64,000 nucleotides of DNA from Microbacterium sp. SLBN-146 (GTDB lineage: Bacteria; Actinomycetota; Actinomycetes; Actinomycetales; Microbacteriaceae): assembly GCF_006715145.1 (NCBI RefSeq), contig NZ_VFMR01000001.1:992001-1056000 (forward strand), given 5' to 3'. The translations under genes and the position numbers were made by a program. Of this stretch, positions 44,632 through 60,644 are shown piece after piece (position 1 is the stretch's first letter; each line of letters opens with the position of its first letter). The notes beneath the pieces were generated by a model. The model saw only the letters and a list, made by a program, of their open reading frames with translations. It did no database searches and had not been told where the DNA came from.

Positions 44632-44768
44632 GGCCGCTCCCGTCCGTTCTGAGCCTCACGGGGAGCCGCGGTGCGGGCGGGAGGACCCAGCCGTTCGACT
44701 CCCTTGACGATCAGCGCGACCACCGCGAAGAGGAGCAGCGCCGCAAGGACGTAGATGACATCGAGCAT
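44628..44768 (-). CDS. 46-aa membrane peptide heading the kdp operon
   Basis: A frame of 46 codons from ATG 44768: one span ([20 protein letters not shown], residues 4-23) and a basic, proline-containing tail ([20 protein letters not shown]). Its stop overlaps the kdpF start, so it is the first gene of the operon and should be co-translated with kdpF. It resembles KdpF in size and topology but lacks the RPEKF end. It may be an accessory subunit or a regulatory peptide. Confidence 0.7.
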
Positions 44769-44860
44769 GATGTCGATGCAACCGCTCGCGGAGGGCTCCG
44801 CCCGCGATCCTTACGGAATCCGCACGCGCATCGCGTGAGGCCTCACGGTTTCCGCACGAG
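44769..44860 (-). promoter_or_regulatory. kdp operon promoter region with putative KdpE boxes
   Basis: Two direct repeats, CCTTACGGAATCCGCACG (44809-44826) and CCTCACGGTTTCCGCACG (44841-44858), read on the plus strand and lie 32 bp apart. The first also occurs in the kimA-like promoter (first 12 bases identical at 60687-60698); the second, extended to 20 bp, matches there at 18 of 20. The left box ends 40 bp before the operon's first ATG, a suitable place for an OmpR-type activator. The right box overlaps the stop codon of the upstream small gene. Confidence 0.6.
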
Positions 44861-44962
44861 CGTGCGGATGCCTGACACCACGAGCACCCCGGCAAGCAGG
44901 CCGAGCACGATCATCGTGGCCACCGACCACCACGTGGAGCCCTGCCGTTCCCAGTTATCCAC
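44843..44962 (-). CDS. 39-aa small membrane protein (duplicate A, shortened)
   Basis: The frame from GTG 44962 reads VDNWERQGSTWWSVATMIVL then GLLAGVLVVSGIRTLVRKP: one span and a basic end. The gene at 47990-48178 is its fuller relative; the middle of that protein, from one WW pair to the next (about 21 residues including one span), is absent here. The loss between two WW-coding repeats suggests a recombination deletion. Function unknown. Confidence 0.65.
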   Translation of the reverse strand: MDNWERQGSTWWSVATMIVLGLLAGVLVVSGIRTLVRKP

Positions 44963-44990
44963 AAGTTCTCCTGAGCCCTTCAAGAGCGCA

Positions 44991-45057: not shown

Positions 45058-45441
45058 ATGCCGCACACTCTGATGATCGGGACCGCGCGAATCCTCATCG
45101 CTGGGATTCTCCTCAGCACGGTGGCGTCGCTCGTCGCCTGCTCGGCTTCCGCAGATGAGTCGTGCGCGGGGTCGCTCGATCAACACTTCGGGGAGTCGCT
45201 GGCGGCACTCTCGGACTGCATCGATGAAGAATCGACACTGGTAATCCAGGACGTCAGCCCTCTTGTCGGGGAAGCGGCATCGTTCAGAGACGACGAAAGT
45301 CGACAGAACTGGATCGTCGTGGCCGGGTGCAGCAGTGACGAAGACTGGCGCACAGCTGAAACTGTCGAGGTCGCGGTTATACCCAGGCCCCATTCGCTAG
45401 ACGAAGCGGACTTCACAGACATCCTCGTTTGCGCATGGTGA
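45058..45441 (+). CDS. small secreted lipoprotein, unknown
   Basis: The ATG at 45058 follows a GAGAGGAAA site; 127 residues. A hydrophobic start (ARILIAGILLSTVASLVACS) gives a lipobox-like VASLVAC, so it is probably lipid-anchored. The mature part has further Cys residues (SCAGSL, LSDCID, VAGCSSDEDW, ILVCAW), enough for two disulfides. I do not recognise the family. It uses the duplicated promoter, so it occupies the place that the RiPP recognition gene has in copy B. Confidence 0.7.
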   Translation: MPHTLMIGTARILIAGILLSTVASLVACSASADESCAGSLDQHFGESLAALSDCIDEESTLVIQDVSPLVGEAASFRDDESRQNWIVVAGCSSDEDWRTAETVEVAVIPRPHSLDEADFTDILVCAW

Positions 45442-45452
45442 CGCGCGCCCGC

Positions 45453-47075
45453 TCACCGCGTCCGCGGCGGCGTGAACCGTGTAATGAGCTCTTGGAGCGT
45501 GGGATCTTTCACGAGCCACAGCATCGTCAGGTACGTCGCAGCGAACGTCGTCGCGATGAGAACCGCGGTCGCGGCTGCGGTGAGCTGGTTCGTCATGGCC
45601 CATCCCTCCAGACTCGGTCCGACGAGCCAGATTCCCAGCGTGCCCCCGAGAGCCGAGGCCGGAAGAGTCGCGACTGCCACTCGTGCGGCGGTGTGCATCA
45701 AGCTACGGAGGGCGAGGGGCCCAAGTTTGCGGCGAAGCAACAGATATCCCGCTGTTGCCTGAACTGTTGTTCCGATTGACTGAGCGAGCGCTACCCCGGC
45801 TGCGATCATCTCCGGTCGGACCAAGAGCGGAACCAGAAGGGTGGCGGTGACGAGAACCACCGCCTGAACGCACGCGTAGATGAAAGGCGTTCTGGCGTCC
45901 CCCACCGCGTAGAACGCTCTTTGCACGAGGAGCAGCAGGGCGAACGGGACCAGGCCAACCAGGTATGCCGCGAGCACCATCGACATCGCCTGGACTGAGT
46001 CGCGGCCCTCCGTCAGTACTCGGCCGATCGGCACAGATACGAGCAGCATGGCGAGAGTTGCGCCTGTCATCGCGATGACGAGCATCCGGGTCCCGGAGGT
46101 GATCAGCTGCACGAACTCATGCGTGTTTCCCGACGCCCCGAGTTCGCTGAGGCGAGTGAAGTAGACGGTCGTGATCGAGACCGCGACGACGGAGTAGGGC
46201 AGCATGAACAGCAGCCATGCGGTGGATGTTGCGAACAGTGAAGCGCCGGCGCCACTGGCAAGGGCTGTCACACGAGATTGGACGATGCCTAACACCTGTC
46301 CGAGCACGACGATTGCAAATGTCCACCCCGCGATCTGGGGCATTCCGGATAGATGCACTTCTCTCCAGCGGAAGTCTGGCCGAAAGCGCAGGCGTGCGCG
46401 TCGCCATGCAACGACCAGCACTCCCGCCTGACCTGCCACGCCGAGGGTCGTCGTCCCGGCGAGCAGGGCGACCATGAGAGGGGTCCAGTCTCCGACGTTC
46501 CCTGTTCCGTCCGGAAAAACGCCGAAGATGATTGCGAACGTCCCGAGGCCCGCCAGTGAAATGACGTTGTTGATGAGCGGCGCCCAAGCGGCGGGCGCGA
46601 ACTGGCGCCGTGCGTTGAGCACCTCACCCAGGAGCGAGAACACTCCGTAGAACAGAATCTGCGGAAGGCACCAGACGGCGAAAGCCACGGCCAGCTCGAG
46701 CTGAGCCGAGCCCCAGCTCGCCGTATAGATCCGCACGAGCCAGGGGGCAAGTAAGAGCGCGACGACGGTCGTCACAGCGAGAAGTGACAATCCCAACGTG
46801 AGAACTCGATTGATGTGTGCTTCGCCACCATCGGGATGGGTGTGGGAGCGCACTACCTGCGGGACGAGGATCGCCGCGAAGACGCCGCTGGAGATGAGCC
46901 AGTAGACGTTGTTGGGAAGTTGATTCGCGACCGCGAATGCATCGGCTGCCTCGCTCCCCACTGCTCCCAGGATCCACGCGAGCAGAACCGTCCGGAGAAA
47001 GCCGAGCACTCGTGACGCGACTGTCCCCGAGCCGAGATGAACTCCACCGCGCAGCAGCGATCCCGCCGATCTCAC
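45453..47075 (-). CDS. murJ: MurJ/MviN-type lipid II flippase (accessory)
   Basis: The 540-residue protein has about 14 spans. Family hallmarks: SGTVASRVLGFLRTVLLAWI at the N-terminus, ADAFAVANQLPNNVYWLISS, VFAAILVPQVVRSH, and VQRAFYAVGDARTPFIYACV in the second half. MurJ moves lipid II across the membrane. Actinobacterial main MurJ is usually longer with a cytoplasmic tail and sits near the chromosome end; this one lies in a variable segment beside a small secreted protein, so an accessory or self-protective role is possible. Confidence 0.85.
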   Translation of the reverse strand: MRSAGSLLRGGVHLGSGTVASRVLGFLRTVLLAWILGAVGSEAADAFAVANQLPNNVYWLISSGVFAAILVPQVVRSHTHPDGGEAHINRVLTLGLSLLAVTTVVALLLAPWLVRIYTASWGSAQLELAVAFAVWCLPQILFYGVFSLLGEVLNARRQFAPAAWAPLINNVISLAGLGTFAIIFGVFPDGTGNVGDWTPLMVALLAGTTTLGVAGQAGVLVVAWRRARLRFRPDFRWREVHLSGMPQIAGWTFAIVVLGQVLGIVQSRVTALASGAGASLFATSTAWLLFMLPYSVVAVSITTVYFTRLSELGASGNTHEFVQLITSGTRMLVIAMTGATLAMLLVSVPIGRVLTEGRDSVQAMSMVLAAYLVGLVPFALLLLVQRAFYAVGDARTPFIYACVQAVVLVTATLLVPLLVRPEMIAAGVALAQSIGTTVQATAGYLLLRRKLGPLALRSLMHTAARVAVATLPASALGGTLGIWLVGPSLEGWAMTNQLTAAATAVLIATTFAATYLTMLWLVKDPTLQELITRFTPPRTR

Positions 47076-47092: not shown

Positions 47093-47449
47093 TCAGCAGA
47101 AGCGGTATCCGCCGAAGGCGGTCGTTGCTTGGTCGTGCACTTCCTTGCCGGGTGCGACCGCGAGGCACAGTCCTCGTCGGGCTCCTCCCCTGAGGATGAA
47201 TTCGATTCGCCTCTTTACTGATCCGCAGTTGTAGACCTTCGCGCCGTACAGGGCGGAAATCCACCAGTACCAGGGCCCGCTGCTGTACTGGACCCCCAGG
47301 GAACAGCCAGCCGCCTTGACCGCCAGTGCCGCAGGTACCTGCGCTGCCGACGCGGCCGAAGGTGGGAAAACCACAAGACTCCCCGCCAAGGCGAAGCCGA
47401 CGGCTATGGCGGTCGTCCGACAACGAAGTGAGGACGATATGCGGTGCAT
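47093..47449 (-). CDS. secreted small protein, tendamistat-like
   Basis: From ATG 47449 the product is 118 residues: a signal peptide (AIAVGFALAGSLVVFPPSAASA) and a mature part of about 83 residues with four cysteines (AAGCSL, YNCGS, RGLCLAV, YRFC). The segment GLCLAVAPGKE is close to GLCYAVAPGQI of the alpha-amylase inhibitor tendamistat, and the cysteine order with a C-terminal Cys also fits that fold. The amylase-binding Trp-Arg-Tyr triad is not seen; PWYWW stands in its place. The target may therefore differ. An upstream in-frame start exists, but this one best fits the signal peptide. Confidence 0.55.
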   Translation of the reverse strand: MHRISSSLRCRTTAIAVGFALAGSLVVFPPSAASAAQVPAALAVKAAGCSLGVQYSSGPWYWWISALYGAKVYNCGSVKRRIEFILRGGARRGLCLAVAPGKEVHDQATTAFGGYRFC

Positions 47450-47551
47450 GGTGACTCCGATCTGTAAGTGGCATCTGCCGGAGACCACCAAAGTCGGCGT
47501 GCGGCGCACCGACCAGCACATGAGGGTGCTGGTCGGGATGTGCGAATGCGG

Positions 47552-47953
47552 CTACCTGGATCGTGGATCCTGTTCCCCAGCCAGCGGACGTGTCGTCAGC
47601 AGGACGGACGGGTCAACCTGCAGCGCTGCCGCCACACGCAAGAGCGTGTCGAGGGTCGGATTGGCTCTCTGTCTCACGCCTGGGCCGATTCGTTCAAGGC
47701 GTCTGTAGGTGTACACGGCGATGCCGGCCCGGTACGCCACTTCTTCCTGGGTGAGTCGGCGGAGCTGCCGAACTTCTCTAAGCCGTCGACTGAAGAGCAC
47801 GGCGGGGCGCCACGTTTCGGGTGGAAACTGTCCGGTCTCGAAGCCGTTGGCACGGTGAACGTAGTTGCCCATGGCCTCAGAGACCTGAGTGAGTCCTCGC
47901 TCATTTGCGAGACCGAACACATAAGTGCGGTCGCCGGTTGCTCGCAACGCCAC
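47552..47953 (-). CDS. XRE-family DNA-binding protein
   Basis: The C-terminal 75 residues form an XRE/Cro helix-turn-helix: SRRLREVRQLRRLTQEEVAY, RAGIAVYTYRRLERIGPGVR and NPTLDTLLRVAAALQVDPSV. The N-terminal ~45 residues are not recognised and the start is uncertain (GTG 47953, or ATG at 47872). It may regulate the neighbouring secreted protein or flippase genes. It is read on the same strand as both, 100 bp upstream. Confidence 0.75.
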   Translation of the reverse strand: MALRATGDRTYVFGLANERGLTQVSEAMGNYVHRANGFETGQFPPETWRPAVLFSRRLREVRQLRRLTQEEVAYRAGIAVYTYRRLERIGPGVRQRANPTLDTLLRVAAALQVDPSVLLTTRPLAGEQDPRSR

Positions 47954-47989
47954 GCGACTCCGCTGCCCCGCCCATGCAGCGCTTCACGT

Positions 47990-48178
47990 TCACGGCTTCC
48001 GCACGAGCGCGCGGATGCCTGACACCACGAGCACCACCGCGAGCACTCCGAGAACGATCATCGTAGCCACCGACCACCACGCGATCGGGCCCGTTGCGAG
48101 GCTCGCGACGATCGCGACGGCACCGGCCGCGATCGCGAACATCCACCACGCGGAACCCCGCTCGTTCTGGTTATCCAC
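47990..48178 (-). CDS. 62-aa small membrane protein (duplicate B)
   Basis: GTG 48178 starts VDNQNERGSAWWMFAIAAGA, with two membrane spans (MFAIAAGAVAIVASLATG and SVATMIVLGVLAVVLVVSGI) and the basic end RALVRKP. Its last 25 codons and its upstream region are duplicated at 44843-45025. It is transcribed away from the daptide operon and could share its control or give self-protection; that is inference only. Confidence 0.7.
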   Translation of the reverse strand: MDNQNERGSAWWMFAIAAGAVAIVASLATGPIAWWSVATMIVLGVLAVVLVVSGIRALVRKP

Positions 48179-48272
48179 AGATTCTCCTCTCGCCCGAATG
48201 ACTCATTTATGAGTGCTTACTATAAGCGGACCTGCCGACATCGCCCCCGGCAGGACGAGAGGGACAACCACG
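48179..48272. promoter_or_regulatory. divergent promoter of the daptide operon, copy B
   Basis: The perfect inverted repeat ACTCATTTATGAGT (48201-48214) is followed by TACTAT (48218-48223), a -10 box for the plus strand; TATAGT on the minus strand overlaps it. An AGAGGGA ribosome site precedes the ATG at 48273. The palindrome overlaps the -35 area, so a repressor or activator could act there. The regulator is not evident; the nearby XRE protein is a candidate. Confidence 0.55.
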
Positions 48273-49298
48273 ATGTCGCAGACGCACTCCGAGCCGAAGA
48301 TCGAGCCGCACATCGCGCGCGCTGTCCACGAGTGGATCTCCGGTCGGCGAGAGCATCACGCGCGGTTCTTCTTCGCATCGACGGGTGAAGCAGCATCCGC
48401 GGTCAGCCCACGTGTGGGTCCGCGCGACGTCCTCCTCAGGCCCGAGCCCGCTGGGCACGAAGCAGGGCGCGGGCTCGTCATCGGATACCAGGGGTGCTTC
48501 GCTGAACTCGGCGACGAGCTCACCGTTTCGGGCCAGACGATCGAGTTGCAGGACTACATCGCGGCCGCCTTCGTCGATGTGCTCGGACCCACCGTCGTCC
48601 GGTTCGTCGACATCGACGGATGGCGGGCGTTCCTCGACGACGCCGAGATCGCACGCGAGAGCGGGATCCTCCCCCCGCAGCTGCGCGACCCACGGATGCA
48701 GCTCGCTGATCGGACCGCGCTTCTCGACCCCTTCGGCGTCGCGCCAGCGGACTCGTTCGCGATCGGCGATGACGGACGAGTGACCTTCGGAGCACAGGGT
48801 GCCGACCTCGGGACCGCGGACGACCCCGCGACGTTCGAGGTCGAAGTTCCGCGCCTCGCCGCGTTCGCGGGAGTCGTGCCGCTCGCCGAGCTCACGGAGG
48901 CGCTGAAGGAACGGGTGTGGCTCCCGCGGCTCCTCGCGCTCGCTGAGCTGCGTCGTGCTCTTCCCGCGGATCTGTCCTCCGCCCCCGTCAGCGGATTCGG
49001 TCGCGTGCTCGTCGATGATGGCGGGGCGGACGCGTTCCCGCAGACGCTCGATCCCTTCGTGCTGTCCTCGGGTGGTTCTGCCCCCGTGCTCGCTGATCCG
49101 GTGACGCGACGTCAGTTCCGTCTGTCGGAAGAGACCGCACGCGTCGTCGAAATCGTCCAGACATCGTCATCTTCCGAGCGGGCCACCCAGCGGATCGCCG
49201 CGGAGTGCGGGATCGCCATGTCCGCGGCGGAGCGACTGCGTACCCAGGCGGTCGAGGCGCTGTCGGTCCATCACGGCGTCGTCGGATCAGCGGCATGA
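48273..49298 (+). CDS. daptide RiPP recognition protein
   Basis: The 341-residue protein is the first gene of the daptide operon. Most of the chain is not a recognised enzyme; the C-terminal 80 residues (PVLADPVTRRQFRLSEETAR then VVEIVQ and ERATQRIAAECGIAMSAAER) have the look of a PqqD-like winged-helix RiPP recognition element. Daptide clusters encode such a leader-binding protein that guides the modifying enzymes. The ATG is preferred over an upstream GTG/ATG because of the GAGAGGGA site; the stop overlaps the aminotransferase start (ATGA). Confidence 0.75.
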   Translation: MSQTHSEPKIEPHIARAVHEWISGRREHHARFFFASTGEAASAVSPRVGPRDVLLRPEPAGHEAGRGLVIGYQGCFAELGDELTVSGQTIELQDYIAAAFVDVLGPTVVRFVDIDGWRAFLDDAEIARESGILPPQLRDPRMQLADRTALLDPFGVAPADSFAIGDDGRVTFGAQGADLGTADDPATFEVEVPRLAAFAGVVPLAELTEALKERVWLPRLLALAELRRALPADLSSAPVSGFGRVLVDDGGADAFPQTLDPFVLSSGGSAPVLADPVTRRQFRLSEETARVVEIVQTSSSSERATQRIAAECGIAMSAAERLRTQAVEALSVHHGVVGSAA

Positions 49299-50551
49299 CG
49301 CAGACCGAGCGCATCTGGACGTCACTCCTCCCCGCCGACAGCACGTTCGACCGCGCCCGCATCGCGGTCTCCGCCCGGGATCGGCACGTGACGTACGCCG
49401 ACGGAACCACGCGACTGTGCGCGACGAGCGGTCTGTGGAACGTGCCGCTCGGCTACGGCAACGCCGCTGTGTCCGAGGCCGTCGAACGGGCGACCCGGGA
49501 TGCCTCGTATCTCTCGCTCTTCCGCGCACCGCACCGACTCGCGGCGGACGCGGCGGATGCGCTCGTCGGTCTCGCGGGACCCAAGACCTATGAGCGCGTC
49601 ATCTTCTCGACGTCGGGTGGCGCGGCGAACGACGCCATGATGAAGCTCGTCCGCCAATACGGGGCCGTCGCCGGTCACGCCCGACGGACGGTCGTGGTCG
49701 GGCTCACGGGGAGCTATCACGGCACGATGTACGGCAGCCACGCGCTGAGCGGAGACGCGTTGCTGCAACCGCTCTACGCGCTGGACCGCCGCGGCATCCG
49801 TCACATCGCCCATGACGACGGCGGTGAGCAGCTCGAACTTCTTCTCCACCGCGAGGGTGATCGGGTCGCGGCTGTCGTTCTGGAGCCCGTGCTCGGGAGC
49901 GGAGCCGTGCCCCTCGACCCGGCGTTCCTGCGGCGGCTCGCGTCGCTGCGTGATCGATACGGATTCCTGATCGTGGCCGACGAGGTCGCGACGGGATTCG
50001 GTCGGACAGGGCCTCTCTTCGCGAGCGAAGCGTGGCCCGTACCGCCCGACGTTCTTGTGGTGTCGAAGGCACTCACCAACGGCGCCACGGCAGCGGCCGC
50101 GCTCCTCGTCGGGCCGACCGTGACGCGGGCCTTCATTCGTTCCCGCGCGACGTTCGCCCATGCCGAAACGCAGGCCGGAACCCCCGTGGCGTCCGCAGCA
50201 ACCCTCGCTGTCATCGACGAGCTGGAACGCCTGCCACCGCTGACGATCGCGCGGCTGGGCGACCGGCTCGCCGATTTGGCCGACGCGCTCGTGCGCGACG
50301 GGTACGCGAAGCGCTGGTCGGGACGCGGGTGCTTCATCGGGATCCGCCTCGTGAATGCCGACGGGTCGGACCTGACTGCCGAGGGAATCGGTGACCTCGT
50401 CGCGCGGATCGCCGGTGAGGGCGTGCTCGTCCACCCCGGACCCAGCACGATTCAGCTGATCCCCGCCTACGCCTTCACGGCAGAGGAGCTCGCCGTCCTC
50501 GACGGGGCTATCCGTCGCGGCATCGACGCCTGGCGCGAAGACGCCGCATGA
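49295..50551 (+). CDS. daptide class III aminotransferase
   Basis: This is a PLP-dependent class III aminotransferase of 418 residues. Motifs: LCATSGLWNVPLGYGNAAVS, FSTSGGAANDAMMKLVRQYG, GSYHGTMYGSHALSG, the cofactor Asp in LIVADEVATGFGRTGPLF, and the Schiff-base Lys258 in VVSKALTNGATAAAALLVG. In daptide biosynthesis the aminotransferase turns the ketone left after oxidative decarboxylation of the C-terminal Thr into an amine. Both ends overlap neighbours by 4 nt. Confidence 0.88.
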   Translation: MTQTERIWTSLLPADSTFDRARIAVSARDRHVTYADGTTRLCATSGLWNVPLGYGNAAVSEAVERATRDASYLSLFRAPHRLAADAADALVGLAGPKTYERVIFSTSGGAANDAMMKLVRQYGAVAGHARRTVVVGLTGSYHGTMYGSHALSGDALLQPLYALDRRGIRHIAHDDGGEQLELLLHREGDRVAAVVLEPVLGSGAVPLDPAFLRRLASLRDRYGFLIVADEVATGFGRTGPLFASEAWPVPPDVLVVSKALTNGATAAAALLVGPTVTRAFIRSRATFAHAETQAGTPVASAATLAVIDELERLPPLTIARLGDRLADLADALVRDGYAKRWSGRGCFIGIRLVNADGSDLTAEGIGDLVARIAGEGVLVHPGPSTIQLIPAYAFTAEELAVLDGAIRRGIDAWREDAA

Positions 50552-51708
50552 TGTCCGCAACCGTGATCCACGCCGCCGTCGGCCACACCGCCGAGACGTT
50601 GCGGACGTTGTGCCACGCGCGCCGCACGGCCGTCGTGTTCGACCACGGAGTCCCGGGAGCCACGGAGCGGGTTCGGGAAGTGTCGCCGTCGCTGGCCCTG
50701 CCGCTCGGCTCGGATCGAGACGCGCGGGGTATCGGGCTTCTGGCGGAGCGCCTCCGTCGGCATGCGCCGGCCGTCATCGTCGCGGTCGGCGGCGGGACGA
50801 CGATTGACGCCGTCAAGCTCGCCGCGCTCGCCTGCCGCGACGAAGCGTTGTTCGCGTACGCCCTGCGCAGTGCCGACCAGCGTGCGCTGACGCTCCTCCC
50901 GAGAGCGATGTCGCCCGCGCCGCAGGTGATCGCCGTGCCGACGACGACGGGGACGTCATCCGAGGTCAACTCCGTCGCCGTGGTCGACACCCGCGGAGGA
51001 CGCCGCCTGGTCGTGGGCGACCAACTGCGCCCCGCGCACGCCGTCATCGACGGGGAAGCGCTGCTCTCGCTTCCCGAAGCAGCCGTCCGCGAAGGCTGCC
51101 TCGAGGCGCTCCTGCGCGTCGCCGGGCGAGCGACGGGAACCCGGGTCGCGTCCGCCGTGGCCATCGACCTAGCGACGGCCCTCGCGCGCGCGGGCGATGA
51201 CGACCTCGGGGGAGCCGACACGCGGCTCCGCGCTGCGCAGCTCGGAGCCGCGACGCAGAGCCCGGCGCTCGGCATCCCCGCGGCGTTCTCGATGAAGCAC
51301 TGGTACCTCGCCAACGAAGTGTCGTTCGTCCTGCAGACCCGCAAGATCCCCGCGACGGCGGCTGTCCTCCCCGCCGTCTGGGGCCGTATCGAAAGTGGCG
51401 ACGACCGGTGGGGCAGAAGCGAGGGCCTGCGAAGTCTCTGGCGCCCGGTCGCCGATGCCATCGGCCTGCCGCACGGGCCGGTCGACGGCATCCATGCGCT
51501 CCTCCATCGGTGGCGGATCCCGATCGCACCGGCACCCACCTCAGCCGACATCACGCGCATCGCCGAAGCGACGGAAAACGCGTGGGGACTCGGCCGGCCA
51601 CCACTGAGGGGAATCGACCGTGCCGAGATCTCCCGCGTTCTCCAAGACGCCGTGTGGGCATCACGCGGACCCATCGGCTCACGACGAGAGGAGGTGATGA
51701 CGATATGA
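50548..51708 (+). CDS. daptide Fe-ADH-family oxidative decarboxylase
   Basis: The 386-residue protein belongs to the iron-type alcohol dehydrogenase family: the NAD-binding VAVGGGTTIDAVKLAALAC (about residue 80) and VIAVPTTTGTSSEVNSVAVV are clear. In daptide pathways this enzyme oxidises the Thr side chain, after which CO2 is lost. The usual metal-ligand pattern is altered: the helix with Asp and His reads REGCLEALLRVAG, and only one His (His251, SMKHWYLANE) is seen where GxxHxxxH is expected. The stop overlaps the first precursor start. Confidence 0.82.
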   Translation: MMSATVIHAAVGHTAETLRTLCHARRTAVVFDHGVPGATERVREVSPSLALPLGSDRDARGIGLLAERLRRHAPAVIVAVGGGTTIDAVKLAALACRDEALFAYALRSADQRALTLLPRAMSPAPQVIAVPTTTGTSSEVNSVAVVDTRGGRRLVVGDQLRPAHAVIDGEALLSLPEAAVREGCLEALLRVAGRATGTRVASAVAIDLATALARAGDDDLGGADTRLRAAQLGAATQSPALGIPAAFSMKHWYLANEVSFVLQTRKIPATAAVLPAVWGRIESGDDRWGRSEGLRSLWRPVADAIGLPHGPVDGIHALLHRWRIPIAPAPTSADITRIAEATENAWGLGRPPLRGIDRAEISRVLQDAVWASRGPIGSRREEVMTI

Positions 51709-51833
51709 CGGCCATCGCAACGACGCTCCAGTTCGAAGAACTCGACCAACTCGAGGCACCCAGCTGGGACAGCTTCTACCAGGGTCTGCTCGCAGGGATC
51801 GCGGTCGTCGGCATCGTGGTCGCGGCGACCTAG
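51705..51833 (+). CDS. daptide precursor peptide 1
   Basis: A 42-residue peptide: leader MTAIATTLQFEELDQLEAP and core SWDSFYQGLLAGIAVVGIVV ending AAT. The TLQFEELD word is shared with precursor 3 and close to TLEFVELE of precursor 2. The core is hydrophobic and helical, and the last residue is Thr, the substrate of the diamine-forming enzymes. The ATG overlaps the dehydrogenase stop; a GAGGAGG site lies 9 nt upstream. Confidence 0.9.
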   Translation: MTAIATTLQFEELDQLEAPSWDSFYQGLLAGIAVVGIVVAAT

Positions 51834-51877
51834 CCGCGGGCGCACGATCCGCACTCGAGGAAGGAAAGGGGGTGAGC

Positions 51878-52006
51878 ATGCAGAACGCATCAACGCTCGA
51901 GTTCGTCGAACTGGAGGAGATGTCGGTGCCGGACGACGGCTGGGACTGGTTCCGAGGATTCAGCTACGGAGTCGCGCTCGGACTGATCGTCCTTTCCGCG
52001 ACCTGA
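51878..52006 (+). CDS. daptide precursor peptide 2
   Basis: A 42-residue peptide: leader MQNASTLEFVELEEMSVP, core beginning DDGWDWFRGFSYGVALGLIV and ending LSAT. It shares the acidic leader word, an aromatic start of the core and a C-terminal Thr with the other two. The AAGGAAAGGGGG site upstream is the strongest ribosome site in the cluster, which suggests high expression. Confidence 0.9.
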   Translation: MQNASTLEFVELEEMSVPDDGWDWFRGFSYGVALGLIVLSAT

Positions 52007-52048
52007 CGCCACGGGTGAATCACCCCACGAGAGACAAGGAATCACGAG

Positions 52049-52168
52049 ATGGAACACCTGACGCTCCAGTTCGAGGAGCTCGATCCGCTCGACGCGCCGA
52101 TGGAGTGGTGGCAGCACGCCTCCTACATCATCGCCGCGATCGGCGGCCTCGTCGCGATCGCGACATAG
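52049..52168 (+). CDS. daptide precursor peptide 3
   Basis: A 39-residue peptide: leader MEHLTLQFEELDPLDAP and core MEWWQHASYIIAAIGGLVAI ending AT. The leader word LQFEELD is identical to that of precursor 1. The core is the shortest of the three and again ends in Thr. An AAGGA site precedes the ATG. Multi-peptide daptide products are known from related clusters, so the three may act together. Confidence 0.9.
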   Translation: MEHLTLQFEELDPLDAPMEWWQHASYIIAAIGGLVAIAT

Positions 52169-52229
52169 CGATCGTGTGATCGGGTGCGGGCGCCCGCGCG
52201 GCGTCCGCACCCCCGACAGAAGGCACTCG

Positions 52230-53024
52230 ATGGAAGAGACACTCACGACATCACTCCGCGCACGATTGGCACGCGAGGGCGCGTACCCCCGCACGGAAGA
52301 CCTGTACTCCGCAGAGGGAGCGCGGTTCTACGACGACCTGGTCGGCGGCGATCGCAGCGAGGTGCGGGAGTTCGTCGCCCTCGCGCGGGCGTGCCACGGC
52401 CGGGTACTGGATCTCGCCGCCGGAGGCGGGCGGATCACACTTCCGCTCTTGTCGATCCGGAAAGCCGTCACGGCCCTCGACCTGTCGTTCGGAATGCTCG
52501 ACCTGCTCAGGCAAGCCGCGCCCGCGAACGCCGACCTCGAGGTCGTGCACGCCGACATGCGCGACTTCCGCATCGATCAGCGATTCGATCTCATCGTCCT
52601 CGGTGCGACCTCCATCACGCTTCTGGACCCCGACGGTCGCCGCCGCCTCTTCGACAGCGTGCGACACCACCTCGCCCCCGATGGACGCTTCGCGCTCTCA
52701 GTCGCCGGCTTCGTGGCGGCGCAGGAACTCCAGCGCACTGCCGACCACACGATTGCGGTGACGCGAGCGGGCCGGAACGCCACGTACCTGTCCTCGCAAG
52801 AGGTTGTGGCGGGGGGATCCGAGCGGATCGTCAACTTCGTCGAGCTCAACGACGGTCTCATCGGGCCGATCTTCACGACACGACTCCAGATCCTCGACGA
52901 TGCGACGATCTCCCGCGAACTCGTCGACGCCGGGTTCGAACCATCGATCGTGCACCCCGTGCGCACGCCGGGTCTCCGTCCCGGCGACGGCATCGTCATC
53001 CTGGAGTCGTCGTGGCAGCGCTGA
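52230..53024 (+). CDS. daptide SAM-dependent N-methyltransferase
   Basis: The 264-residue class I methyltransferase has motif I GRVLDLAAGGGRIT (residues 57-70), the acidic residue in VTALDLSFGML and motif IV FDLIVLGATSITLLDP. In the daptide class this enzyme dimethylates the new amine. The ATG at 52230 follows AGAAGG; an upstream in-frame start would overlap precursor 3's downstream gap without a ribosome site. The end overlaps the protease start by 13 nt. Confidence 0.88.
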   Translation: MEETLTTSLRARLAREGAYPRTEDLYSAEGARFYDDLVGGDRSEVREFVALARACHGRVLDLAAGGGRITLPLLSIRKAVTALDLSFGMLDLLRQAAPANADLEVVHADMRDFRIDQRFDLIVLGATSITLLDPDGRRRLFDSVRHHLAPDGRFALSVAGFVAAQELQRTADHTIAVTRAGRNATYLSSQEVVAGGSERIVNFVELNDGLIGPIFTTRLQILDDATISRELVDAGFEPSIVHPVRTPGLRPGDGIVILESSWQR

Positions 53025-54661
53025 CCCTCGACTCCCGTCCCCGACTGGCTGACACCGTCGCCTTCGAGGAGTCCGCCGCCGGCGACGGGCAGTGGATCGT
53101 CCTGGCATCCGACGTGCCCGTCTCGCGCGTGTCGCGTCCCGTCGTCGACCTGCTCCGTTCACTGGATGGGCGAACTCCCGTGCGAGACCTGCAGAGTCGC
53201 CACGACTCGGCGTCGTCGCCAACGGAGTTTCTCGCGCTCGTGCGCAGATTCGAGGGGCGCGGACTCATCGCGGGTGCCGAGCGCCGCCCTCCCGGCCGCT
53301 TCTCCTACCGCCCTCCGCTCACGGTCCAGCTCGCGTCGCTCGGCGCGCCCGCTCTCTTCTCACGCCTCGAAAGGCTCCGCCGCCGTCTCCTCCGTGGATG
53401 GATGCTGACTCCCATCGCCGTCCTCATCGTGCTCGGTGCCGCAGCGCTCGCCGTACAGGCGCCGACCGTCCTCGCACTGCTGACCCGGCCGCTCCCCGTG
53501 TCGAGCTTCCTCGCCGTCGTCGCGGTTCTCGTTGCTGCGACGTTCGCGCACGAGGCAGCCCACGGCATGACACTCGCCGGATATGGGGTCCTGCCCCGTC
53601 GCGCCGGCGTCATGCTCTTCTATCTCAGCCCCGCGTTCTTCGTCGACGTGACGAACGGCTGGAGACTCGCAGACCGCCGAGGGAGGGTCGCCGTCGCGCT
53701 CGCCGGCCCGGCCGTAAACGCAGCTCTCGCCTCAGCCGCAGCGCTCGTGGCGGCGATCCCGGGCATGGATGACACCGTCCGCGATGCCCTCCTGATCCTC
53801 GCGACCGCGTCGTGGTCGATCGTGCTCGTCAATCTCATCCCGTTCGTCCGCTTCGACGGGTACTTGGCATTGATGAGCGCCCTCGACATCCCGAACCTGC
53901 GAACCTCGGCAATCCACGACGTCCGCGACACGACGGGGCGCGTGCTGTTCGGGTCGTCGCGACAGCCGCGTCGATTGCCACAGGCGTGGGTTCTGCCGTT
54001 CGGTGTCATGAGCGTCGTCACCCCGCTCCTGCTCATCGCGCTCGCGCTGGATCGGATCATCCGGGCACTCTCGGGGGGAGGACCCGGGGGCGCCTGGGCG
54101 ATTCTCGCGCTGGCGTTCATAGTCGCCGTCGGTGTGACCGCCGCGCTCGTCAAGGCCGTCCGCCACCTCTTCCGAACGGGCGCGCGCCCGTGGCGCGTGA
54201 TCCTCGTCGGCACACCGATCGTGGCGGTGGCCGTCTGCGCAGGATTCATCATCCCCGTGCAGACGACCCTCACGACGGGTTTCGTCACGAGCGACGCCTC
54301 CCTCCGACTCGTCGTCCCCGGTGCGGTTGTGCCCGACATCGCACCGGGGACGGCGGTGACTCTCTACGAACAGGGGATGCTGGGCCGTCGAGCCATCGCG
54401 CAGGCGGTCGTCACGGCGCGATCCGACGCCCCGACCTCCGTGCCTCTCGGCGCGGTGTACCCGTTTGACGCGCCCGGAGTCGTCCTGGACGGGCGGACGA
54501 TCGCCGAGGCCCGATTCGTCGGCGCCCGCCCGTCTTCCGACTCGGTCGGGATCGCCGTCATCCCGACCGGCCGGACGTCGGCGTGGGGCGCGCTGTGGAG
54601 CGCCACGGTGCTGCAGCCGCTGACGACCATCGGTGTCGGTGCACCCGCAGATTCGCAATGA
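53012..54661 (+). CDS. daptide M50-type intramembrane metalloprotease
   Basis: The 549-residue protein starts at GTG 53012. Residues ~1-95 resemble a PqqD-like domain (PRLADTVAFEESAAGDGQWI, SRPVVDLLRSLDGRTPVRDL). The membrane part bears the zinc motif HEAAH (180-184, FAHEAAHGMTLAGYG) and the second metal site Asp282 (FVRFDGYLALMSAL), as in site-2 proteases. A C-terminal beta-rich domain follows the last spans. It probably removes the leader at the membrane. The stop overlaps an ATG of the ABC gene. Confidence 0.88.
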   Translation: MAALTLDSRPRLADTVAFEESAAGDGQWIVLASDVPVSRVSRPVVDLLRSLDGRTPVRDLQSRHDSASSPTEFLALVRRFEGRGLIAGAERRPPGRFSYRPPLTVQLASLGAPALFSRLERLRRRLLRGWMLTPIAVLIVLGAAALAVQAPTVLALLTRPLPVSSFLAVVAVLVAATFAHEAAHGMTLAGYGVLPRRAGVMLFYLSPAFFVDVTNGWRLADRRGRVAVALAGPAVNAALASAAALVAAIPGMDDTVRDALLILATASWSIVLVNLIPFVRFDGYLALMSALDIPNLRTSAIHDVRDTTGRVLFGSSRQPRRLPQAWVLPFGVMSVVTPLLLIALALDRIIRALSGGGPGGAWAILALAFIVAVGVTAALVKAVRHLFRTGARPWRVILVGTPIVAVAVCAGFIIPVQTTLTTGFVTSDASLRLVVPGAVVPDIAPGTAVTLYEQGMLGRRAIAQAVVTARSDAPTSVPLGAVYPFDAPGVVLDGRTIAEARFVGARPSSDSVGIAVIPTGRTSAWGALWSATVLQPLTTIGVGAPADSQ

Positions 54662-54687
54662 CGACAACGCAGGGAAAGGACCACGGA

Positions 54688-55407
54688 ATGTCAGAACACC
54701 CCCCGATCGAGGTCCAGGGGCTCACGAAGGACTACGGCAGACGCCGCGTCGTCGACGATGTCAGCTTCTCGGTGGAGCGAGGACGGATCGTCGGTCTCTT
54801 GGGGCCCAACGGCGCTGGCAAGTCGACAACTCTGCGGGCGATCGTCGGACTCGTGGCACCGACCGCCGGAGTCGCGCGCATCGACGGGGTGCCGTTCCGT
54901 CAGCTCGTGCATCCCGCGGCGCACGTGGGCGTGCAGATGGACGACTTCGGCTTCGAGGCCGGTCTCACGGCGCGTCGCCATCTCGAGATCACGCGACTCA
55001 TGGTCGGCGCGCCACCGGCACGCGTCGACGAAGTGCTGGAGGACGTCGGGCTCGCACTCGACGGGCACCGCCGCATCGCGACCTTCTCGACAGGGATGAC
55101 GCAGCGGCTCGGACTCGCGACTGCCCTGCTGGCACGTCCTCGCACGCTCATCCTCGATGAGCCCGCCAACGGACTCGACCCCGAGGGCATTCGCTGGTTG
55201 CGGGGCTTCCTTCGCACCTTCGCCCGTCGAGGCGGCGCCGTGCTGGTCTCGAGCCACCAGCTGTCCGAGATCCAGCAGACCGCGGACGACGTCGTCGTGC
55301 TGCGTCGCCGCGTGCTGTTCGCGGGAGAGCTGGACGAGCTCCTCGACGTAGGAGCGTCCCTCGAGGACACCTACTTCCGGCTCCTCGACGGACAGGCCGC
55401 CGCGTGA
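54688..55407 (+). CDS. daptide ABC transporter ATP-binding protein
   Basis: From ATG 54688 (site GGGAAAGGA, 7 nt spacing) the product is 239 residues. Walker A is GPNGAGKS (39-46), the Q-loop region VGVQMDDFGFEAGLTARRHL, the signature is the variant TFSTGMTQRLGLATALLA and Walker B RTLILDEPANGLDPEG, as in bacteriocin/immunity-type exporters. An ATG at 54658 that overlaps the protease stop is possible. It drives export of the mature peptide, or self-protection. Confidence 0.88.
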   Translation: MSEHPPIEVQGLTKDYGRRRVVDDVSFSVERGRIVGLLGPNGAGKSTTLRAIVGLVAPTAGVARIDGVPFRQLVHPAAHVGVQMDDFGFEAGLTARRHLEITRLMVGAPPARVDEVLEDVGLALDGHRRIATFSTGMTQRLGLATALLARPRTLILDEPANGLDPEGIRWLRGFLRTFARRGGAVLVSSHQLSEIQQTADDVVVLRRRVLFAGELDELLDVGASLEDTYFRLLDGQAAA

Positions 55408-56135
55408 CGGGGGCGATCCGGGCCGAGATCGTCCGGTCGGTGAGCGGGTTGACCCTGCTCGCACTCATCGGGCTCGCGGCCCTCGTGCCCGTCGTGGTGC
55501 TGACGTCGGGCGGCGATGCGACTGCCGCAGCTCGAGACCTCCCCGCCGCCCAGGCCACGCTGCGACTCGTCGCACCGCTCGGCTGGAGCTTTGTCGCCGC
55601 AGGATTCGCCGGCGCGTACACGGTCACTCGCGAGCAGTACTACGGTTCCCTCGACCGGACGACGCTGATGGTCGGTCGACGCCGTGCGCTCGTCGCCAAG
55701 TCGCTCGGCGGAGCTGTGACCGCAACGCTGCTGACCGCGATGCTCTGCGCGGCATGGTGTGTCGCGATGGCGGCGCTTCTCTCGGCGAACGGGAGCTCGT
55801 TCGTCCTGTCACCCGACGTCGGCGGGGCCCTCGCGGGCTCCCTCGGCGGTGCAGTGCTCGGCGCGATCGGCGGCTGCGCTGTCGGGTGGATCGTCCGCAA
55901 CTACTACGCGGCCGCCGCGATCGTGCTCGGCGGACCTCTCGCGTTCGAGCTGCTTCTCCTGAGCACGAATCCCGACGTCGTACGGTGGTCACCGGGACTC
56001 GCGATCGCGGCGATCGCCGTGCCTGGATACCGCGACGTCCTGCTCGACCGACCCGCCGCCGTCGTCGTGGCACTCGCGTGGATCGTGGGGGTTTCGGCGG
56101 TCGCGTTCCTCACGGCGGAGCGGCGTACGCGGTGA
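55404..56135 (+). CDS. daptide ABC permease 1
   Basis: A 243-residue membrane protein with about six spans (LTLLALIGLAALVPVVVLTS, LRLVAPLGWSFVAAGFAGAY, SLGGAVLGAIGGCAVGWIV). The pattern matches ABC-2-type permeases of lantibiotic-immunity style exporters. The GTG overlaps the ATPase stop and its own stop overlaps the next permease (GTGA at both ends), so it is coupled with both and likely forms a heterodimer. Confidence 0.8.
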   Translation: MTGAIRAEIVRSVSGLTLLALIGLAALVPVVVLTSGGDATAAARDLPAAQATLRLVAPLGWSFVAAGFAGAYTVTREQYYGSLDRTTLMVGRRRALVAKSLGGAVTATLLTAMLCAAWCVAMAALLSANGSSFVLSPDVGGALAGSLGGAVLGAIGGCAVGWIVRNYYAAAAIVLGGPLAFELLLLSTNPDVVRWSPGLAIAAIAVPGYRDVLLDRPAAVVVALAWIVGVSAVAFLTAERRTR

Positions 56136-56848
56136 CCGCTGCCCTGCGCTCGCGGGTCGCCGCGCTCCCGACCGACCTCGTCCTCGCCGGCTTCGTCGTC
56201 GCGTGCTTCGTGCTCGCGGCATCCATCGCCCTCTCAATCCCCGAGGGACTCGGCAATGCTCCGGATGCCGTGAAGGAGACGTTCCGCGCGACGCTCGTGA
56301 CCCCGGCCGTCCTCATGACGATCCTCGTATCGGCCCTCTACGCGGGGTTCGACTACACGCTCGCCCTCCGACGTGGCGTCGTCGTGCGCGAGACGACGGC
56401 GCAGCGCCGGGGTGCGGTGCTGGCAGCGCGCGCTCTTCTCGCGGGCGGGGGCGGTGCCGTCGTCGGACTCGCGTGCGGTGCAGGGACCCTCGTCGCGGGC
56501 GGTGTCGCGGGCGCCGGATGGACGCCGGCGCCCTCCCTCCTCGGGAGTGCCGCCGTCGCCGGGGCGCTCGCGGCATCCTGGGGGTTTGCGATCGGCGTGA
56601 TCGTCCGCCACCACCTCGTCGCGCTGTTCGTCGTCCCCGCTTCGCTCGGTGTCGCCGTCCCGTTCGCGTCGCTCGTGCCTGGGGCTGCGAGCATCCTGCC
56701 TCTCCCCACCCTCCTCGGAGCGGTCGGGGTGGATGCCGGCACGCTCGGATTCGCGGCCGACATCGCGGCGGTGCCGCTTGTCGCGGGCTGGATCATCCTC
56801 GGGCTCGGCGTGGCCGTCGTCCGGTTCGTCTCGCGAGACGTGACGTGA
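56132..56848 (+). CDS. daptide ABC permease 2
   Basis: A 238-residue membrane protein from GTG 56132, with about six spans (LVLAGFVVACFVLAASIALS, LVTPAVLMTILVSALYAGFD, GGGGAVVGLACGAGTLVAGG, VAGWIILGLGVAVVRFV). It is the last gene of the operon and ends 3 bp before the convergent sufU stop; no terminator hairpin separates them. It probably partners with permease 1. Confidence 0.8.
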   Translation: MTAALRSRVAALPTDLVLAGFVVACFVLAASIALSIPEGLGNAPDAVKETFRATLVTPAVLMTILVSALYAGFDYTLALRRGVVVRETTAQRRGAVLAARALLAGGGGAVVGLACGAGTLVAGGVAGAGWTPAPSLLGSAAVAGALAASWGFAIGVIVRHHLVALFVVPASLGVAVPFASLVPGAASILPLPTLLGAVGVDAGTLGFAADIAAVPLVAGWIILGLGVAVVRFVSRDVT

Positions 56849-56851
56849 GGG

Positions 56852-60644
<3,793 letters not shown>

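Follow-up and report, generated by a model that had tools for sequence, protein, structure and literature searches.

Organization of the locus

We describe here a group of genes in Microbacterium sp. SLBN-146 that very probably directs the synthesis of daptides, a class of ribosomally synthesized and post-translationally modified peptides (RiPPs). The window that we analysed is a stretch of 64,000 nt from contig NZ_VFMR01000001.1 (positions 992,001 to 1,056,000), and the group lies at 48273-56848 on its plus strand. There are eleven genes, with all frames intact, in the order B-D-C-A1-A2-A3-M-P-T1-T2-T3 (Table 1). An earlier reading of the window from its letters alone (the sequence-only reading) had placed eleven plus-strand genes here, and all of them are open on that strand at the positions it gave. 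It had also described nearly all of them as overlapping by 4-13 nt. This holds for seven of the ten junctions (six overlaps of 4 nt and one of 13 nt, between M and P), but there are gaps of 44 nt before A2, 42 nt before A3 and 61 nt before M.

The best NCBIfam model is daptide-specific for all eight non-transport proteins, with E-values from 1.9e-13 to 3.2e-159 that are far beyond chance. The sequence-only reading had named the daptide class, had taken the gene set to be complete and had proposed a comparison with the published daptide cluster. Class and gene set are upheld by the NCBIfam comparison, in which seven of the eight proteins exceed the curated cut-off and DapC falls below it. There is only one match to DapB in the genome as a whole, and the three daptide precursors above the cut-off are all inside the operon, with one weak sub-threshold match elsewhere (E 0.98). 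NCBIfam and Pfam scans of the eleven proteins found no YcaO, LanKC or other tailoring gene.

For comparison, 50 loci (the window included) were selected by a match to DapB. The complete order of eleven genes is present in 41 of them, again including the window; some of the other nine are truncated by contig or fetch ends and others are different. A trio of precursor genes lies between C and M in 44 loci. Taken together, the data suggest that 48273-56848 is a complete operon of the type of the mpa cluster of Microbacterium paraoxydans, and from its gene content it is one without the tailoring enzymes present in some other daptide clusters. We hold it to be very probable that the operon converts the C-terminal Thr of three separately conserved precursors to a dimethylated diaminopropane (Dmp), with subsequent leader removal and likely export. 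In each of the three predicted peptides a positively charged amine would thus take the place of the usual acidic C-terminus.

Table 1. Features of the operon and of the segment around it (window coordinates; model cut-offs in brackets after the bit scores; a slash in a precursor marks the predicted cleavage)
Feature	Position	Strand	Description
dapB	48273-49298	+	Fusion of a domain of unknown function (DUF) and a RiPP recognition element (RRE); predicted to serve the oxidative decarboxylase as its recognition/accessory protein; residues ~253-331 are RRE-like
dapD	49295-50551	+	Class III pyridoxal phosphate (PLP) aminotransferase (predicted ketone to amine); NF041821, 529.9 bits (450); PF00202; SKALT, Lys258
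dapC	50548-51708	+	Dehydrogenase of the iron-containing alcohol dehydrogenase (Fe-ADH) family that lacks the metal ligands; predicted to decarboxylate the C-terminal Thr oxidatively; NF041822; PF00465
dapA1	51705-51833	+	Precursor MTAIATTLQFEELDQLEAP/SWDSFYQGLLAGIAVVGIVVAAT; NF041805 MpaA1 family, 70 bits (40)
dapA2	51878-52006	+	Precursor MQNASTLEFVELEEMSVP/DDGWDWFRGFSYGVALGLIVLSAT; NF041806 MpaA2 family, 49.9 bits (40); in-frame GTG at 51872
dapA3	52049-52168	+	Precursor MEHLTLQFEELDPLDAP/MEWWQHASYIIAAIGGLVAIAT; NF041807 MpaA3 family, 86.9 bits (40)
Hairpin	52182-52212	+	13-bp perfect stem with a loop of 5 nt in the A3-M gap; predicted to stabilise or attenuate the transcript
dapM	52230-53024	+	S-adenosylmethionine (SAM) methyltransferase (predicted N,N-dimethylation); NF041820, 236.6 bits (175)
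dapP	53012-54661	+	M50-type (site-2-type) intramembrane protease, predicted leader removal; NF041824, 364 bits (300), residues 10-384; HEAAH at residue 180
dapT1	54658-55407	+	ATP-binding cassette (ABC) ATPase; PF00005; best NCBIfam TIGR03740 lantibiotic protection ATPase, 185.7 bits (309.75; below)
dapT2	55404-56135	+	Predicted ABC permease; hydrophobic segments; position conserved in related loci
dapT3	56132-56848	+	Predicted ABC permease; hydrophobic segments; conserved position; stop at right edge of inserted segment
Inserted segment	44768-56847		12,080 nt, measured against the junction between kdpA and sufU in G011, the closest relative as judged from sufU-sufS DNA
Two related small membrane proteins	44843-44983 and 47990-48178	-	Each divergent to a plus-strand gene
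Lipoprotein-like open reading frame (ORF)	45058-45441	+	Preceded by a diverged copy of the region upstream of the operon; candidate for co-regulation
Second MurJ-like flippase	45453-47075	-	216 bits, below the MurJ cut-off
Secreted-like ORF	47093-47521	-	142 aa; no Pfam or NCBIfam match
XRE-type helix-turn-helix regulator	47552-47953	-	PF01381, 34.4 bits (23); candidate regulator of the segment
Palindrome-like CTCATTTATGAG	48202-48213		Upstream of dapB; candidate operator; overlapped by the 24-nt pattern

The modification enzymes

The sequence-only reading had assigned a class III aminotransferase, a methyltransferase and an M50 protease, and the family matches agree in each case: NF041821 and PF00202 for DapD, NF041820 for DapM, and NF041824 together with the HEAAH motif for DapP. 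An HExxH motif is present in DapP of 50 out of 50 loci, and one strict pattern finds the PLP lysine motif of DapD in 46 of 54 loci; the motif is present in the window. The class has an RRE at the N-terminus of DapP, a part that is covered here by the whole-protein match to NF041824. The nearest sequence to DapM in the PDB is 3g2m (PCZA361.24), and the cypemycin N-terminal methyltransferase (7wzg) also matches. In a tree of 53 DapD sequences the window falls within a firmly supported clade of 40 (100/100); it has a long branch (0.63) to itself next to the mpa-like clade, a placement that is weakly supported (95/61).

DapB scores 216.9 bits against its NCBIfam daptide model (cut-off 150). It had been described as a PqqD-like recognition protein; it has two domains, and just the final ~80 residues, which model as an RRE, resemble one.

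A second, diverged dapB lies directly upstream of dapB in 12 of the 50 loci (L038, L046, L048, L053, L061, L068, L070, L073, L074, L079, L080 and L081); the window has none. Three of these second copies are only 240-261 aa long (240 aa in L079) and their match to the DapB model stops near position 235 of 331, so they are without the RRE. The main dapB of L081 reads as two pieces.

DapC matches PF00465 (69.2 bits, cut-off 31.3) and its top NCBIfam model is daptide_DH. We aligned DapC from the window, from Microbacterium-type loci and from five named loci, 54 sequences in total, with eight general Fe-ADHs. Four positions, which we take from the general Fe-ADH family to be the metal ligands, are D, H, H and H in 6-7 of the eight general enzymes. 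The same positions in DapC are E in 54 of 54, R in 54 of 54, mostly F (37 of 54, with nine different residues in all) and K in 54 of 54; in the window they are E186, R190, F260 and K266. As read from this alignment, the window DapC has lost all four metal-ligand residues, the loss is general in DapC, and the replacements E, R and K are common to all 54 sequences. The sequence-only reading had described DapC as a dehydrogenase of the Fe-ADH family, and the loss of the ligands refines that description. Consistent with this, TfDapC of Thermobifida fusca, whose ligands are likewise substituted, is reported to be metal-independent (PMC12338566).

Class III aminotransferases, Fe-ADH proteins and M50 proteases are widespread, and the enzymes could in principle serve another RiPP class, the precursors being daptide-like only superficially. 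We regard this as extremely unlikely, because daptide-specific and not general models are best for each step and each precursor, and because the three shared residues of DapC set it apart from general Fe-ADHs.

Precursors and predicted products

All three precursors end in Thr, as had been noted from the sequence. They fall one each into the MpaA1, MpaA2 and MpaA3 families and all three are also above the NF041808 cut-off. The features of the class are present: a leader motif resembling ELExMEAP, an aliphatic core and the C-terminal Thr.

The route from precursor to product is predicted at every step from characterised homologues. Through its RRE, DapB would recognise the leader by the motif E-L-x-x-[LM]-x-x-P and offer the C-terminal Thr to DapC. 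Oxidation and decarboxylation of this Thr by DapC would leave an aminoacetone ketone (-46 Da). The ketone would be transaminated by DapD, and DapM would add two methyls, bringing the sum of the changes from Thr to Dmp to -16.94 Da. DapP would then cut after the conserved Pro, and T1-T3 would carry the peptides out of the cell, protect the producer, or both. The sequence-only reading had given the product mass as the core minus CO2 plus transamination and two methyls; this rule computes to -16.94 Da and equals the published loss of 17 Da (PMC10036551). Daptide chemistry has been shown for mpa by co-expression in Escherichia coli (PMC10036551) and for T. fusca in vitro (PMC12338566). If cleavage is at the Pro site, the terminus is Dmp and nothing else is changed, the predicted [M+H]+ values are 2320.306 (A1), 2628.361 (A2) and 2384.295 (A3). 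The three peptides likely act together on membranes.

The precursors of the comparison were kept only if they were 30-70 aa long, ended in Thr and were similar to those of the window by tblastn, so that a terminal Thr in 132 of 132 is built in. The Pro expected at the cleavage site is replaced by Leu in 21 of the 132 and by Gln in two, nearly all of them A2 precursors of related loci, and DapP may cleave without a Pro at the site.

A daptide operon might also have another end point, stopping at the ketone, the primary amine or the singly methylated amine after one enzyme had drifted. DapC is the protein that could suggest this, being diverged (no more than 46% identical to its counterpart in each of the 43 other trio loci) and under its model cut-off. 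DapD and DapM are, however, well above their cut-offs, the PLP lysine motif and the shared DapC residues are retained, and no tailoring gene was found among the eleven proteins. A truncated pathway is therefore unlikely, and we keep to Dmp as the predicted terminus.

Conservation of the three-peptide layout

In the 44 trio loci the mean core identity within a slot is 69% for A1, 65% for A2 and 76% for A3, and between slots it is 22-31%. There is overlap between the two ranges (lowest values within a slot, 23-29%; highest values between slots, 41-55%), probably owing to four trio loci of a far diverged clade (L043, L054, L056 and L063). Mean enzyme identities, from 200 sampled pairs each, are 47% for B, 50% for C, 52% for P, 54% for T3, 54% for M, 56% for T2, 66% for D and 68% for T1. 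Set against these values, the slot means indicate stronger conservation of the cores than of most enzymes. For the window itself, the A1 and A2 cores average 53% against the 43 other loci, below DapD (59%) and T1 (62%).

The A2 core of the window is up to 96% identical to that of another locus, L052. Against the eight-locus group that contains L052 (the L040 group), the A2 core differs by 11% in protein and by 70% at four-fold sites. The A1 core differs by 24% (four-fold, 49%) and the A3 core by 30% (four-fold, 47%), which makes A2 the extreme case, and the enzymes B, C, D, M and P differ by 41-59% in protein. This pattern points to long-term purifying selection on the A2 peptide. Recent exchange of precursor genes, considered as a cause of the near-identical A2 core, was rejected in view of the 70% difference at four-fold sites.

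Four loci of the same genus (L044, L047, L055 and L071) are daptide-like but of other architecture, and the precursors of L044 and L047 have longer cores rich in Gly and Ala.

A conserved hairpin behind the precursors

There is a hairpin in the gap between A3 and M of the window (z -2.85 for a slightly longer stretch). Among the A3-M spacers of 44 loci, z is -2 or lower in 40, and a perfect stem of at least 9 bp is present in 28, of which 27 have at least 12 bp. The mean perfect stem is 10.4 bp in comparison with 5.9 bp after shuffling. Elsewhere in the precursor region such values are rare: z is -2 or lower in two A1-A2 spacers and the stem at least 9 bp in none (44 spacers), and the corresponding counts are five and four for the 40 A2-A3 spacers long enough to fold. 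Random 66-nt stretches of the same loci have a stem of at least 9 bp in 49 of 880 cases and of at least 12 bp in four of 880. The four loci with z above -2 are L049, L058, L080 and L083; in the last of these, a stretch of C residues interrupts the 3' arm.

Covariation was assessed in the 32 of the 44 A3-M spacers that were aligned, with 12 from two diverged clades omitted as too unlike to align. Paired bases fill 94.2% of the cells and six of the 13 pairs have changes on both sides. The covariation score was reached in none of 500 shuffles, which do not keep kinship, and registers slid along the alignment pair in 63.6% of cells at most, with at most four two-sided pairs; the stem under test was itself defined from the window and the consensus. 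Eleven of the 12 omitted spacers have z of -2 or lower, and those inspected form hairpins of unrelated sequence. A joint fold of three unlike spacers found nothing.

Folding energy alone was rejected as evidence for a hairpin. In these GC-rich loci it is -25 kcal/mol or lower in 170 of 440 random 85-nt stretches, compared with 41 of 44 behind A3, and a count of ten pairs is passed by 392 of 440 random stretches and by 44 of 44 A3-M spacers. As energy alone does not discriminate, the case for the hairpin rests on the shuffles, the length of the perfect stem and the covariation.

There is no U-run downstream of the hairpin in the window, which suggests that it is more likely a stabiliser, a processing site or a partial terminator than a full terminator. 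A search of Rfam gave no family match in 47500-57500, and a consensus scan of 47900-57000 gave no promoter, and terminators no more often than chance. The words hairpin, stem-loop and lipoprotein are absent from the main texts of PMC10036551 and PMC12338566.

The transport unit

The sequence-only reading had called T1-T3 a three-gene ABC exporter. A three-gene ABC unit is present, but the role in export is taken from published naming only, and T1 is closest to the lantibiotic-protection type. Lantibiotic-protection transporters of the LanFEG type have one ATPase and two permeases of ~240 residues, and the window shares with them both this three-gene layout and TIGR03740 as the best family for T1. 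T1-T3 could therefore be chiefly a self-protection pump and not an exporter of fresh peptide, an explanation that we consider possible, if somewhat short of an even chance. It is also favoured by the observation that colony extracts contained the full products, with a lower signal, when only mpaABCDMP was present (PMC10036551), although secretion and retention are not separable in such extracts. On the other hand, T1 is far under the TIGR03740 cut-off, there are no lanthionine enzymes among the eleven genes, and TfDapT1T2 is described as a predicted exporter (PMC12338566). We retain export as the somewhat likelier function.

Comparison with known daptide systems

Like the window, the mpa cluster has B, C, D, M, P and ABC genes with three precursors and no secondary modifying enzymes (PMC10036551). 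DapP proteins named M. paraoxydans (rows P0068, P0121 and P0138) are just 43-45% identical to that of the window. The T. fusca (tfDap) and Streptomyces azureus (saDap) clusters follow the same B/C/D/M/P logic as the window. In contrast with the window, both carry YcaO, tfDap also carries LanKC and luciferase-like genes, and there are four to five precursors (PMC12338566). The Bacillota daptides and hominicin have, as the window does, a predicted Dmp terminus from a C-terminal Thr (PMC10036551), but the dehydrogenase of the window is of the actinobacterial PF00465 type. The operon is a new, deeply diverged and complete daptide member of which the class, the enzymes and the modification are already known.

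Some combinations of the three mpa peptides are more haemolytic than the single peptides (PMC10036551), which fits joint action of three peptides. We tentatively propose, as an idea that may well be wrong, that the daptides of Microbacterium are an obligate three-part system, in which anciently separated A1, A2 and A3 peptides, each under its own selection, are encoded in one operon in fixed order, in a trio closed by a conserved RNA hairpin, and have distinct places in one membrane-active complex.

Several points weigh against our interpretation of the operon. Its products are predictions from the genes. Joint action rests on conservation and on the published haemolysis of other daptides. T2 and T3 have no Pfam or NCBIfam match, and T1-T3 may serve in export or in immunity. 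The structure matches for the RRE of DapB are only middling (top Z 6.3). Finally, DapC reaches 283.8 bits against NF041822, under the cut-off of 300. To place this last value, nine other daptide-type DapC homologues were scanned. Three of them pass (P0021, P0033 and P0035) and six fall short with scores of 265-287 (P0015, P0017, P0020, P0023, P0028 and P0030); a general Fe-ADH, the tenth protein scanned, has no match at the threshold used. As six of nine homologues share the shortfall, it probably does not count against a daptide enzyme in the window.

An inserted segment

The genome labelled G011 is the best match to the sufU-sufS DNA of the window among 290 genomes (80%). Its homology ends at window position 44767 and resumes at 56848, and the two genomes have 136 nt and 12,080 nt, respectively, in between. 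Twenty kdpA/sufU loci were picked by sufU-sufS similarity (16 of the strongest and four lower). In eight of these kdpA and sufU are neighbours within ~0.1-1.6 kb; for the remaining 12, no kdpA side was observed beside sufU. None of the eight genomes is among the 67 with DapB. The GC content at third codon positions (GC3) is 0.74-0.86 in nine genes of the segment and 0.875-0.91 in five flanking genes. Taken together, the sequence comparisons suggest that the segment was inserted and probably acquired.

A DapB match is present in 67 of 366 genomes of the genus, its own included, and no other exceeds 45% identity among the matches listed. Closer homologues are found in the sequence databases (DapB, 87-88%; DapC, 82-85%; DapP, 80-81%).

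The lower GC3 would also fit an acquired cluster that is silent or decaying and makes no product. This is very unlikely, as the frames are all intact with coupled starts, the A2 core has the marks of purifying selection and the hairpin is retained.

In addition to the operon, the segment encodes a small membrane protein, an XRE regulator, a secreted-like ORF, a second MurJ-like gene and a lipoprotein-like ORF. The main murJ of the genome is at C1:926629, and no counterpart of the second MurJ-like gene is present in the sequence retrieved for the other 49 daptide loci. The small-membrane-protein unit is duplicated together with its intergenic region; the protein at 47990-48178 matches a GPGG-motif model weakly and below its cut-off.

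Upstream regions

The upstream region of dapB recurs, in diverged form, ~3.15-3.2 kb away in front of the lipoprotein-like ORF; the two copies are 90% identical over 92 nt and 77% over 122 nt. A 24-nt pattern built from the two copies has no third site in the genome with up to three mismatches allowed. An immunity lipoprotein was considered as the product of this ORF and is kept as a lead only: eight other genomes match (E < 1e-9), five with DapB and three without, and the gene is beside dapB in none of the five. Co-occurrence with DapB is above chance (P 0.006, by a statistic that ignores kinship).

The sequence CYTCAnnTGARG is present upstream of the first dapB in 23 of 48 other loci, in comparison with 0.4% of random 200-nt stretches, and the window has CTCATTTATGAG instead. 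AATATTG is found there in 26 of 48 loci, as against 0.3% of random stretches. A promoter-like element, AATATTGCA followed after about 20 nt by TATAG-CCTCAnnTGAGGAC, is shared upstream of dapB by L038, L041, L043, L048, L051 and 18 further loci. ATGTATACAT is present in six of the 48 upstream regions and was seen in the clade of the L040 type.

Implications

The three precursor families have already been named by NCBIfam. The fixed order of the three peptides, the pattern of selection on them and the RNA element are not described in the main-text parts of PMC10036551 and PMC12338566 that we consulted. The window adds an operon that is complete yet deeply diverged and for which three masses are defined, together with a DapC free of metal ligands and a covarying RNA element, and this element should be kept, or tested, in any refactoring of these operons. 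The functional role of daptides is stated to be unclear (PMC12338566). If the three peptides are one assembly, removal of any single precursor gene should abolish activity, and the comparison therefore makes the question of why there are several peptides per cluster a testable one.

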